Both the position numbers and the translations under genes were made by a program. A stretch of 32,689 bases of DNA from Komagataeibacter nataicola (lineage in GTDB: Bacteria > Pseudomonadota > Alphaproteobacteria > Acetobacterales > Acetobacteraceae), in NCBI RefSeq assembly GCF_003207795.1, contig NZ_NIRT01000032.1:1-32689 (forward strand). The letters run 5' to 3'. Below the pieces are notes generated by a model that worked only from the letters and a program-made list of their open reading frames with translations, was not told the origin of the DNA and made no database searches. Shown piece after piece: positions 2,680-32,445 of the stretch. Within the stretch, counting starts at the first letter, position 1, and every line of letters starts with the position of its first letter.

Positions 2680-2757
2680 AAAGTTTTTGGTGAAGCTTTT
2701 TCAAAAAGCTTCAGAATACGTTACCTTTTTGAAAAAAGGCGACACCCAAGAACTTTT
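2680..2757. repeat. Cloverleaf-like intergenic repeat, copy 1 (forward orientation)
   Basis: An outer stem is formed by AAAGTTTTTGGTG (2680-2692) and CACCCAAGAACTTTT (2743-2757). Inside are a perfect hairpin, GAAGCTTTTT (2692-2701) with AAAAAGCTTC (2703-2712), and a second one, CCTTTTT (2724-2730) with AAAAAGG (2733-2739). It fills the gap between convergent rho and the quinone oxidoreductase, ending one base before the latter's stop codon. It matches the copy at 32365-32445 along its whole length. Confidence 0.85.
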
Positions 2758-2758
2758 A

Positions 2759-3730
2759 TCAGGGCAGCAGGATCGTGCTGCCGGTAGTCTTGCGTGATTC
2801 CAGTGCGATATGCGCCTGCGCCGCGTCCTTGAGCGCAAAGGACTGGCCGATGCGCGGCGTCAGCACGCCCTTTTCCACCAGCGCGAACAGTTCACGCGCC
2901 GCATGCTCAAGGGCCGAACGCTGGGCGATATAGGTCATGAGCAGGGGGCGGGTGAGGTACAGGCTGCCATGGCTGGCCAGCGTGCCGATATCCACCCCCG
3001 TCACGGCGCCTGAGGCATTGCCGTAGCTGACCATCAGCCCGCGTGGGCGCAGGCAGGACAGGCTGGTCTCGAACGTGTCTTTGCCGATGCTGTCATACAC
3101 CACCGGCAGCATGCGGCCTTCGGTCAGGGTGTGGACCTGTTCGGCCACGTTGTCGGTGCCGATGATGACATCCGCCGCGCCATTGGTCTTGGCCAGTGCG
3201 GCTTTTTCCGGGGTGGAGACCACGCCAATCACGCGCGCGCCCAGATGCCGCGCCCACTGGCACATGAGCAGCCCCACGCCGCCTGCCGCCGCATAGACCA
3301 GAATGTCATCGCCCGGCTGCACGCGGTACACATCGCGCAACAGCATGTGCACGCTCAGGCCGCGCAGCATTATGGCGGCGGCTGTTTGCGCCGTAATGTC
3401 GTTAGGGAGCACCACAACCCGGTCTGCCGCGATGGTGCGCAGGGTGGCGTATCCGCCCGGCGTGGCGGGATAGGCCACCCGCATTCCGGTCCGCAGGCCC
3501 GATACGCCATCACCCACCGCCGTGATGGTGCCCGCGCCCTCCATGCCGGGAATGGCGGGCAGGGAAGGGAATTTGTACAGTCCGCTGCGGAAGTAGGTAT
3601 CGATGAAATTGACGCCGATCGCCTCCTGCCGCACCACGATCTCGCCGGGGCCAGGTGTCGGGACGGGCAGCGTTTCCACGCGGAGGACATCCGGCCCCCC
3701 ATAGCCATGCACGCGGATGACGGTATTCAT
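2759..3730 (-). CDS. NAD(P)H:quinone oxidoreductase, zeta-crystallin type (MDR superfamily)
   Basis: A 323-residue medium-chain dehydrogenase/reductase without structural zinc. The N-terminal GroES-like domain contains GPGEIVVRQEAIGVNFIDTY and the segment PGMEGAGTITAVGDGV. The nucleotide-binding domain carries AAAGGVGLLMCQWARHLGA at about residues 148-166, where the AxxGGVG form is typical of quinone reductases. It would reduce quinones or reactive carbonyls with NADPH in the cytoplasm. The start is supported by AGGAG eight bases upstream. It lies 29 bases after the ogt-like gene on the same strand, so the two are probably co-transcribed. It faces rho tail-to-tail across the first cloverleaf repeat. 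Substrate cannot be assigned within this family. Confidence 0.9.
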   Translation of the reverse strand: MNTVIRVHGYGGPDVLRVETLPVPTPGPGEIVVRQEAIGVNFIDTYFRSGLYKFPSLPAIPGMEGAGTITAVGDGVSGLRTGMRVAYPATPGGYATLRTIAADRVVVLPNDITAQTAAAIMLRGLSVHMLLRDVYRVQPGDDILVYAAAGGVGLLMCQWARHLGARVIGVVSTPEKAALAKTNGAADVIIGTDNVAEQVHTLTEGRMLPVVYDSIGKDTFETSLSCLRPRGLMVSYGNASGAVTGVDIGTLASHGSLYLTRPLLMTYIAQRSALEHAARELFALVEKGVLTPRIGQSFALKDAAQAHIALESRKTTGSTILLP

Positions 3731-3759
3731 GATCGTGGCTCCTGTTCAGCTATGCGGTG

Positions 3760-4227
3760 TCAAAGCGGGGTGGCGGACAGGGTTTCAAGGTCCAGCAGGA
3801 ACTGCCGGTCGCGTGCGCCTTCATCACCGGGATAGCTGTCAGGGTCGTAATCGGGGCAATCGGCAAAATCGATGCGGTGGCAGGGAATGAAAATGGGGAT
3901 AGGGTTCTCGGCGCAGGCGCTGAGAATGGTCTCGGGCGATACGCCAGCCTGGTGGGCGGCATCGCGCCAGTTGACCTGCTGACCTACGGGAATACTGATC
4001 ATGAACCGCCATGCCGCCTGCTGCTCTGGCGTGCCATAGGGGGCGAGCGGCAGTTTGCACAGCGCGGCCTCGCCATCAAAATAGGCTTCCAGCCAGGAGC
4101 GGGCTTTTTCCAGAAGGGGTGTTTCTTCCTGATCGCGGCCCCAGCCCCAGTCAAGCGCCACGATCTGCCCGTCCTCGGCGGAGACGGTGAGGGGGGCCAA
4201 TGGCGAATGCATTGAAAGTTGTGGCAT
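3760..4227 (-). CDS. Divergent Ogt-like methylated-DNA-protein cysteine methyltransferase
   Basis: A 155-residue protein whose second half matches the DNA-binding and acceptor domain of O6-alkylguanine-DNA alkyltransferases: AAWRFMISIPVGQQVNWRDA, then NPIPIFIPCHRI with the acceptor Cys at residue 116. Such proteins transfer an alkyl group irreversibly from O6-alkylguanine to this cysteine. Two usual features look changed. The arginine finger, nine residues before the Asn of 'NP.P' in human AGT, falls on Glu here (SPETILSACAENP). The glycine-rich stretch after PCHR (GGYAGG type) is replaced by an acidic FADCPDYDPDSYPGDE segment. Activity is therefore uncertain. It is the first gene of a probable pair with the quinone oxidoreductase and is divergent from mnmE. 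AAGG precedes the start. Confidence 0.75.
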   Translation of the reverse strand: MPQLSMHSPLAPLTVSAEDGQIVALDWGWGRDQEETPLLEKARSWLEAYFDGEAALCKLPLAPYGTPEQQAAWRFMISIPVGQQVNWRDAAHQAGVSPETILSACAENPIPIFIPCHRIDFADCPDYDPDSYPGDEGARDRQFLLDLETLSATPL

Positions 4228-4311
4228 GAGTCACCTTGATCAGGACAAAGAGGTGAACGATAACGCCGTTCGGGGCACTGGCAAAATGATGATGACCTGA
4301 TGGAGGCAAGA

Positions 4312-30747: not shown

Positions 30748-32208
30748 ATGCCCTCATCCCTTCAGGGTCTCACCCCGCTGGCCGCAACTGATGCCCTGTT
30801 CTTTGAACGCGCCGGTGCCCGCCTTGGCCGCCCCGATGCCGAGCGCCTCGTGCAGCAGGCGCTCGAGGGAATGGATGATGGCGAGCTTTTCCTGGAATAT
30901 CGTGAAAGCGAGGGCATTTCGCTTGATGAAGGCGTCATCCGCTCTGCCACCTTCGATACATCATCAGGCTTCGGCCTGCGCGCGGTGCTGGAGGCGGAAA
31001 CCGGCTTCGCCCATTCCGATGAGATCAGTGAAAGCGCGATCCGCCGCGCGGCCGAGACCGTAAGCCAGGTGCGCGCGGGCCGTTCGGGCACGCTGGCCGC
31101 AGGCCCCCGTTCAACCAACCATCGCCTCTATCCCGACATCAACCCGCTGGCGGAGGGTGAATTCGCGTCGCGCGCGGCCATGCTGTCGGAGCTTGATGCC
31201 TATGCCCGCGCGCGTGATCCGCGCGTGGTGCAGGTGATGGCCTCGATCTCGGCGGAGTGGCAGGCCATCCAGATCCTGCGGCCCGACGGGCAGCGCATGG
31301 CCGATATCCGCCCGCTGGTGCGCCTGAACGTATCGGTGGTGGTGGAGCAGGACGGGCGGCGCGAGAGCGGCGGCCACGGGTTAGGCGGTCGTTATTCCTA
31401 CAGCCGCCTGCTGGCTCAGGACGTGTGGAAGAATGCGGTGGACGAAGCGCTGCGCATGGCGCTGGTCAACCTGGACGCCCGCCCGGCCCCTGCGGGCGAG
31501 ATGGAGGTGGTGCTGGGCGCGGGCTGGCCCGGAATCCTGCTGCACGAGGCCGTGGGCCACGGGCTGGAAGGGGATTTCAACCGCAAGGGCACGTCCGCCT
31601 TCGCCGGGCTGATGGGCCAGCGCGTGGCCGCCCCCGGTGTGACCGTGGTGGATGATGGCACGCTCCCCGAGCGGCGCGGCAGTCTGACCATTGATGATGA
31701 AGGCACGCCCACCGGGCGCACGGTCATGATCGAGGATGGCATCCTGACCGGCTACCTGCAGGACCGCCTCAACGCCCGCCTGATGGGGGTTGCCCCCACC
31801 GGCAATGGCCGCCGCCAGTCTTACGCCCACGCGCCTATGCCGCGCATGACCAACACCATCATGCTCGGTGGCGATGCTACGACCGAGGACATGATCCGCA
31901 GCACGAAACGCGGGCTGTATGCCGTTAATTTTGGCGGCGGGCAGGTGGATATTACCTCGGGCAAGTTCGTGTTCGCCGCATCCGAGGCCTACATGATCGA
32001 GGACGGCAAGATCACATCTCCCGTGCGTGGCGCTACCCTGATCGGCAATGGCGCGGATGCCATGACCAAGGTGACCATGATTGGCGGTGAACCCGCCCTT
32101 GACCCCGGTATTGGCACCTGCGGCAAGTCCGGGCAGGGCGTGCCGGTGGGCGTGGGCCAGCCCACCCTTAAAATGACCGGCCTGACTGTGGGCGGCACGG
32201 GCGGCTGA
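30748..32208 (+). CDS. tldD: Metalloprotease TldD
   Basis: A 486-residue member of the TldD/PmbA family (E. coli TldD 481). The zinc motif HEAVGH (266-271, HExxxH) is present in ILLHEAVGHGLEGDFNRKG, which marks TldD rather than its inactive partner TldE. Further family segments are SSGFGLRA near the N-terminus, YAHAPMPRMTNTIML, and GGGQVDITSGKFVFAASEAYMIEDGKI near the C-terminus. TldD/TldE degrade unfolded peptides and mature microcin B17 and similar peptides in E. coli. No tldE or peptide cluster is visible here. I chose ATG 30748, because the sequence upstream is not TldD-like and GGAG lies about 10 bases before it. Confidence 0.96.
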   Translation: MPSSLQGLTPLAATDALFFERAGARLGRPDAERLVQQALEGMDDGELFLEYRESEGISLDEGVIRSATFDTSSGFGLRAVLEAETGFAHSDEISESAIRRAAETVSQVRAGRSGTLAAGPRSTNHRLYPDINPLAEGEFASRAAMLSELDAYARARDPRVVQVMASISAEWQAIQILRPDGQRMADIRPLVRLNVSVVVEQDGRRESGGHGLGGRYSYSRLLAQDVWKNAVDEALRMALVNLDARPAPAGEMEVVLGAGWPGILLHEAVGHGLEGDFNRKGTSAFAGLMGQRVAAPGVTVVDDGTLPERRGSLTIDDEGTPTGRTVMIEDGILTGYLQDRLNARLMGVAPTGNGRRQSYAHAPMPRMTNTIMLGGDATTEDMIRSTKRGLYAVNFGGGQVDITSGKFVFAASEAYMIEDGKITSPVRGATLIGNGADAMTKVTMIGGEPALDPGIGTCGKSGQGVPVGVGQPTLKMTGLTVGGTGG

Positions 32209-32232
32209 GGAAGTGATAGCCACCTGTATTTT

Positions 32233-32261
32233 CAACAGGTTGTTTGAAAAACAACCTGTTG
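32233..32261. terminator. 13-bp perfect inverted repeat after tldD
   Basis: CAACAGGTTGTTT (32233-32245) and AAACAACCTGTTG (32249-32261) form a perfect stem with a 3-base GAA loop, 25 bases after the tldD stop. No T run follows on either strand, so it may stabilise the mRNA 3' end or be a weak or factor-dependent terminator rather than a standard one. Confidence 0.55.
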
Positions 32262-32364
32262 ATGGGAAATAACGAAAGTTTTTGCGGGCAACCTCCCGGG
32301 ACCAGGCATTCAGGGTAGTAAGAGGCTGTTTGAAACGTTAGGCTCAATAATATTCTGAAATTAT

Positions 32365-32445
32365 AAAAGTTTTTGGTGAAGCTTTTTTCAAAAAGCTTCA
32401 GAAGACACCGCCTTTTTGGAAAAAAGACGACACCAAAAAACTTTT
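32365..32445. repeat. Cloverleaf-like intergenic repeat, copy 5 (forward orientation)
   Basis: The most complete copy. The outer stem is AAAAGTTTTTGGTG (32365-32378) with CACCAAAAAACTTTT (32431-32445), one base bulged. Hairpin 1 is GAAGCTTTTT (32378-32387) with AAAAAGCTTC (32390-32399). Hairpin 2 is CTTTTT-type with its A-rich partner (32411-32429). It agrees with copy 1 along its full length and orientation, and lies between tldD and the convergent IS5-type transposase. Confidence 0.85.

Follow-up and report, generated by a model that had tools for sequence, protein, structure and literature searches.

RUP, BOX and Correia elements are structured, mobile repeats that lie between genes and resemble miniature inverted-repeat transposable elements (MITEs). 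A 32,689-nucleotide stretch of the Komagataeibacter nataicola genome (assembly GCF_003207795.1, contig NZ_NIRT01000032.1; hereafter the window) contains five copies, numbered 1–5 by position, of a cloverleaf-like repeat in which an outer stem encloses two hairpins. The family appears likewise structured, mobile and intergenic, but in other taxa and with other sequences. Our analysis points to the repeats probably being non-autonomous MITE copies, many of them worn down, in Acetobacteraceae, with a core possibly acting at transcript 3' ends.

The repeats resemble IS5-family MITEs in being short and non-autonomous, in having terminal inverted repeats of the form GAG(G/A)CTGTTTGAAAA and, in some copies, a TNA triplet duplication, and in that an IS5-type insertion sequence (IS) with near-identical ends occurs in the same genus. 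What sets them apart from IS5-family MITEs is a conserved core, a three-way junction with covarying stems that often occurs without the arms, and a placement almost confined to gene 3' ends. With repetitive extragenic palindromes (REPs) and bacterial interspersed mosaic elements (BIMEs) of the GTAG and CGTC families, as described in PMC3733652, they share a high copy number, a palindromic sequence and a location near gene 3' ends in convergent and co-directional gaps. They are unlike these in that no REP-associated tyrosine transposase (RAYT) was found in the genus, in the IS-type ends of the long form and in exceeding the REP unit, whose length that paper gives as 20–40 bp. As it also describes the same stop-side placement for REPs, the placement itself is not new; PMC4686929, in its accessible part, names MITEs and REPs in general terms only. 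This family is not described in the full-text literature on Komagataeibacter, Gluconacetobacter, Gluconobacter, Acetobacter and Acetobacteraceae among the matches listed, which comprised titles and the starts of abstracts, with subscription papers mostly outside. The repeats apparently make up an abundant, undescribed family of Acetobacteraceae MITEs that are placed much as REPs are and keep the structure of their core.

Ends of the full-length form

The complete form is 156–162 bp long, contains no transposase and consists of IS5-family-type terminal inverted repeats (GAGGCTGTTTGAAAA), two A+T-rich arms and a core of about 80 bp; it begins GAGGCTGTTTGAAAAGTCAGGC and finishes TTTTCAAACAATCTC. 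A pattern of the 22 left-end bases, allowing at most three mismatches, was found 19 times in the K. nataicola genome and its reversed control not once. The triplet TNA precedes 16 of the 19 left ends (p = 4e-17). A right end was detected in six left-ended copies, giving two-ended lengths of 156–162 bp, and four of these six are flanked by identical triplets, TCA in one (L081) and TTA in three (L082, L091 and L097).

We inspected 30 loci with PF13340 transposases in the genus for an IS with similar ends. One of them (L112, genome G012) holds an 883-bp IS5-type IS at 951–1833 whose ends, GAGCCTGTTTGGAAA and TTTTCAAACAGGCTC, are nearly the same as those of the repeat (GAGGCTGTTTGAAAA against GAGCCTGTTTGGAAA and GAGCCTGTTTGAAAA), and an IS of this type is the kind of helper that would likely serve the armed repeats. 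Given the terminal ends, the TNA targets, the triplet duplications, the ends of this IS and the lack of a RAYT match, MITEs are the best reading of the armed copies, and we regard a mobile MITE origin for them as very likely. The initial annotation had offered a mobile palindromic element of REP or MITE type as one of its options, and the MITE half of that option is borne out.

The REP half fits in placement alone, beside gene 3' ends, and we consider it highly improbable that the repeats are of REP or BIME type and mobilized by a RAYT, a Y1 tyrosine transposase. The defining part of such a system was not found in any of the 19 same-genus genomes: PF01797 had no match in them, and of ten genomes from other genera that carry the element G155 alone gave one, against matches in 5 of 14 control genomes; RAYT origin was rejected. 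The elements, moreover, measure about 80–160 bp, the long form has IS5-type ends, and CGTC repeats are, in PMC3733652, said to be missing in Acetobacteraceae.

In a second of the 30 inspected loci, a 2.7-kb stretch (L103:72–2775) is bounded by GTGACTGTTTGAAAA and TTTTCAAACAGTCAC, has a PF13340 match inside and is possibly another mobile unit with related ends. By eye, similar ends flank copies in genus g83 (L135) and in Acetobacter garciniae (L214), and less clear ones copies in g79 (L130, L143 and L150).

Arms and core are unequally joined. Core sequence follows all 19 left ends (18 by script and L099 by eye), and no left end was found without a core; among the best 30 core copies, a list selected by similarity to an armless core, 10 score at least 30 for the left or right flank, four for both and 20 for neither. 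The armed copies L015, L016 and L018 sit after an apparent piece of another core.

Fold and covariation of the core

Intact copies have an outer stem, AAAAGTTTTTGG ... CCAAAAACTTTT, that encloses a GAAGCTTTTTT hairpin and a GCCGCCTTTTT hairpin in a three-way junction. Folded alone, 20 of 21 copies give z-scores of –3.4 or lower and the remaining one –2.5, and 17 of the 21 form two hairpins within an outer stem (of 3 bp in L132); folded together with their flanks, window copies 2, 4 and 5 partly form other structures. Our first covariance model (R1) had nine pairs only, probably because the truncated copy 3 was in its alignment, and was replaced by a model (R2) with supplied structure, trained on 32 sequences that included copies 1, 2, 4 and 5 and excluded copy 3. 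A search for three-way junctions that ignored sequence gave no hit in the window under strict settings; when relaxed, it recovered one of the five copies there along with two unrelated places, and its hits did not clearly outnumber those in shuffled sequence (six hits in c18 against nine in three shuffles, and nine in G052C150 against 15 in three).

The stems had been claimed to persist although their bases vary, and this proved real. One pair of hairpin 2 is C–G in 19 and U–A in 8 of 32 copies, although within the genus covariation is modest, with six pairs showing two-sided change against a shuffled mean of 3.6. The signal is much stronger across genera, where the letters of the hairpins vary widely and pairing is kept, in an alignment (A3) that was fitted to the model, which favors pairing. 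Among 20 rows from five genera (g1, g83, g79, g35 and g48; one strand per copy) 95.6% of cells are paired and we counted 92 two-sided changes, whereas 500 shuffles averaged 21.5 and never exceeded 32; slid controls, computed on the full alignment with both strands included, lowered pairing to 49–71%. The covariation of the core across genera suggests selection on structure. In genome G052, stretches L190 and L194 hold short one-hairpin versions that end GCGCTTCTTTTTTGAAAAAAAGAAGCAAAAAACTTT, as if half elements persist alone.

The fold bears on how far the family can be explained as purely parasitic, its placement reflecting tolerated insertion and its folded core nothing other than copied palindromes. 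In keeping with such an explanation, co-directional gaps hold three of the four copies that have identical triplets, about 41–597 nt from genes, as if insertion were not directed at convergent ends; copies also decay, and some relatives have empty sites. The cross-genus covariation, tested for the core, speaks against it, as do the many core-only copies and the failure to find left ends without a core. Armless copies are also structurally more intact than armed ones: with window copies 2 and 4 set aside, the mean number of broken pairs is 1.65 against 3.1 (p = 0.02). This is the opposite of plain ageing but suggestive only, since the copies on the list had been selected for their similarity to an armless one. 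On balance we find a purely parasitic family rather unlikely.

Placement at gene ends

The initial annotation had placed the repeats only in convergent gaps and none between co-directional or divergent genes. Within the window this holds for all five copies with two caveats, copy 2 facing a 40-aa open reading frame (ORF) and copy 5 a cut-off transposase-like gene. Genome-wide, the co-directional part of the claim fails. In a 432,689-bp sample of the K. nataicola genome, window included, the covariance model gave 37 copies (62 model rows after merging overlaps). With genes called by a simple purpose-made finder that missed some small genes, 19 copies were convergent (occupying 17 gaps as read by eye), 15 co-directional, one divergent, one inside a gene call and one at a contig edge, copy 2 being tallied as co-directional though the small ORF makes it convergent; the gaps on offer were 50 convergent, 292 co-directional and 50 divergent. 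Four other genomes yielded 44 copies (from 42 rows at E ≤ 0.01 and 33 at E ≤ 0.05, overlaps merged and two 25-nt partial hits, L193:121 and L194:3128, left out), 27 convergent, 16 co-directional, none divergent and one inside a gene call, with 106, 493 and 105 gaps of the three types on offer.

Between a quarter and a third of convergent gaps are thus occupied, compared with a few per cent of the co-directional gaps, and Fisher tests setting copies against gaps support the convergent excess over co-directional gaps (p = 2e-9 in the own genome and 6e-12 in the four others). As 15 of 37 and 16 of 44 copies are co-directional, and 27 of these 31 lie closer to the upstream stop than to the downstream start, the rule is better put as "mostly just after stop codons." An even spread among gap types, or stem changes that do not covary, had been named in advance as grounds for dropping the proposal; neither was found in our samples, and "only convergent" is too strong.

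One reading of this placement is that the repeats serve the host as dedicated bidirectional terminators or as signals for 3'-end processing, forming an inherited and non-mobile regulatory module for converging genes. It draws on the strong covariation, on the 11 of 16 armless convergent copies among the best 30 that have no more than 21 nt between core and stop codon on both sides, and on the scarcity of canonical terminators in occupied convergent gaps (15 of 44, against 40 of 70 without an element; p = 0.02, for gaps of at least 40 bp in the convergent set and with gap lengths unmatched). Co-directional gaps, however, show no such depletion (8 of 31 with an element and 86 of 368 without; p = 0.83). 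The core folds also do not show the G+C-rich hairpin and following U run of an intrinsic terminator, as no U run comes after either hairpin and the cloverleaf as a whole has just UUUUAU at its end, and copies 1 and 4 each have a canonical terminator next to them. The terminal repeats and triplet duplications, furthermore, show mobility, and orthologous copies are often missing, halved or inverted. We therefore hold an inherited host module to be unlikely, and terminator or RNA-processing activity, two of the options first proposed, to be possible for a core that is without the terminator hallmark. The gap beside degP, the clear convergent gap singled out as empty, does lack a copy; its own terminator does not explain the absence, since copies 1 and 4 also adjoin canonical terminators and the relative G008 has the element after its degP gene.

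In the MITE reading that we prefer, an IS5-family transposase would move the element in trans, and insertions would be retained mainly where they do least harm, just past stop codons and chiefly where genes converge. Three of the four copies with identical triplets are co-directional, and the 19 left-ended copies comprise 14 convergent, three co-directional and two at edges; small as these numbers are, they may mean that converging genes are favored in retention and not in insertion. That the placement arises through selective retention and not through targeting seems to us a good deal more probable than the reverse. The arms would subsequently be lost and the core retained for the benefit that its three-way-junction fold brings at transcript 3' ends, where it could block read-through of opposing transcripts or the progress of 3' exonucleases. 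We put forward a host function of the core tentatively, with somewhat more doubt than belief. A bolder version, in which the core is a domesticated, self-spreading 3'-end module on an IS5-type MITE, seeding structured ends where genes converge, selected there for its fold and not its letters across Acetobacteraceae and renewed in place by inversion and replacement between copies, strikes us as rather doubtful.

Several observations weigh against the MITE reading or parts of it. The flanking triplets are unlike in two of the six two-ended copies (L094, which is window copy 5, and L095), 13 of the 19 left-ended copies have no recognizable right end, and the IS at L112 is without matching flanking triplets. 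No copy was seen moving, nor was an exact empty site found. The subgroup of IS5 that duplicates TNA is the IS1031-like one. By eye, no IS5-type ends were seen at seven loci of G052 and G138, which hold distant copies, so the core may predate the arms or have spread by another route, and four of five G052 copies fold alone into a single long hairpin instead of a three-way junction. The count of armless copies depends on how the list of 30 was chosen, and occupancy does not differ significantly between co-directional and divergent gaps (p = 0.48 in the own genome and 0.09 in the others). Finally, several species lack the orthologous copies or have broken ones, so that function is not essential at those sites.

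Window copies, turnover and spread

All five elements are present where the initial annotation had located them, two forward and three reverse as it said; the covariance model recovers each (E from 6.4e-24 to 1.9e-5) and finds no sixth element in the window at E ≤ 0.01. Both ends are present on copy 5, and no arms were seen on copies 1–4. Copy 1 (2678–2759, plus strand; 92.2 bits) is core only, with no arms by score (L001), and its core is 88% identical to that of copy 5. It lies between rho and a zinc-dependent dehydrogenase gene and extends to the stop codon of the latter, the facing gene; directly ahead of it and outside the element stands a perfect canonical terminator with hairpin and T run (2644–2676, plus strand), recognized from its sequence and fold. 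The upstream rho gene (1311–2621) encodes the termination factor Rho with Rho_N, Rho_RNA_bind and ATPase domains.

Copy 2 (18821–18903, minus strand; 76.4 bits) is core only, with no arms by eye, and is flanked by a histidine-phosphatase gene and the 40-aa ORF at 18931–19053. This hydrophobic ORF on the minus strand was missed by the gene finder and recurs at the same place in relatives; it may encode a real small membrane or secreted protein. Copy 3 (24857–24914, minus strand; model match 24856–24933, 30.5 bits) is a truncated core with one hairpin intact and most of the other deleted. Copy 4 (27731–27812, minus strand; 60.5 bits), between a tRNA and a trehalase gene, is core only with no arms by eye and has decayed, with nine broken pairs. 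The core of copy 5 (32364–32447, plus strand; 85.6 bits) lies within a full-length element of 161 bp (32322–32482, plus strand) with left end GAGGCTGTTTGAAAC and right end TTTTCAAACAATTTC, preceded by TAA and followed by the unlike triplet AGA. The gene facing it at the contig edge is the cut-off end of what we take to be an IS5-type transposase.

We read orthologous gaps in two syntenic blocks, of ten and seven relatives, where not all gaps were readable in every genome. The copy 1 site holds a full or partial element in nine of the ten relatives, inverted in G002, G013 and G008, and is without one in G012. The copy 2 site is occupied by a full copy in G004, G014 and G003 and by remnants in G018 and G015, and none was seen in G007 and G012. 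The copy 3 site has full copies in G018, G004 and G003, the last inverted, and the gaps of G002, G013 and G008 measure merely 8–18 bp. Along the 23 kb of the second block many sites persist from species to species, with single copies halved, inverted or replaced by armed ones. Such turnover would follow if the outer inverted arms mediated inversion or gene conversion.

With copy 1 as query, the own genome gave 40 strong matches among 245 candidates, and matches were found in all 19 same-genus genomes (own included) and in 1 of 21 more distant ones; these match counts may include both strands of one palindromic copy, are capped per genome and are not copy numbers. A family sample had matches in at least 29 of 200 genomes and 15 of 91 genera, a lower bound under stricter filters that missed G022, a genome matched in the preceding search. 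The pattern of outer arm and hairpin 1 occurs in named genomes of Komagataeibacter, Novacetimonas, Gluconacetobacter, Acetobacter, Gluconobacter and Acidocella. Its sole match outside Acetobacteraceae, on a Tidjanibacter metagenome contig (L273:4656–4686), has no visible second hairpin and may be due to chance, transfer or contamination. Of 72,556 plasmid records, six carry the element, all from Komagataeibacter or Novacetimonas. Rfam models at the gathering score matched no element and only two tRNAs in the window.

By extrapolation from the sampled density, the whole K. nataicola genome would hold about 300 copies. The family is one more repeat family, apparently undescribed, in bacteria used for cellulose and vinegar, and it joins two things that are usually separate, MITEs of the IS type and a REP-like position at the ends of genes. 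Its many copies, natural truncations, inversions and empty orthologous sites would make it suitable for testing whether mobile repeats with a structure are retained for tidying the ends of convergent transcripts.

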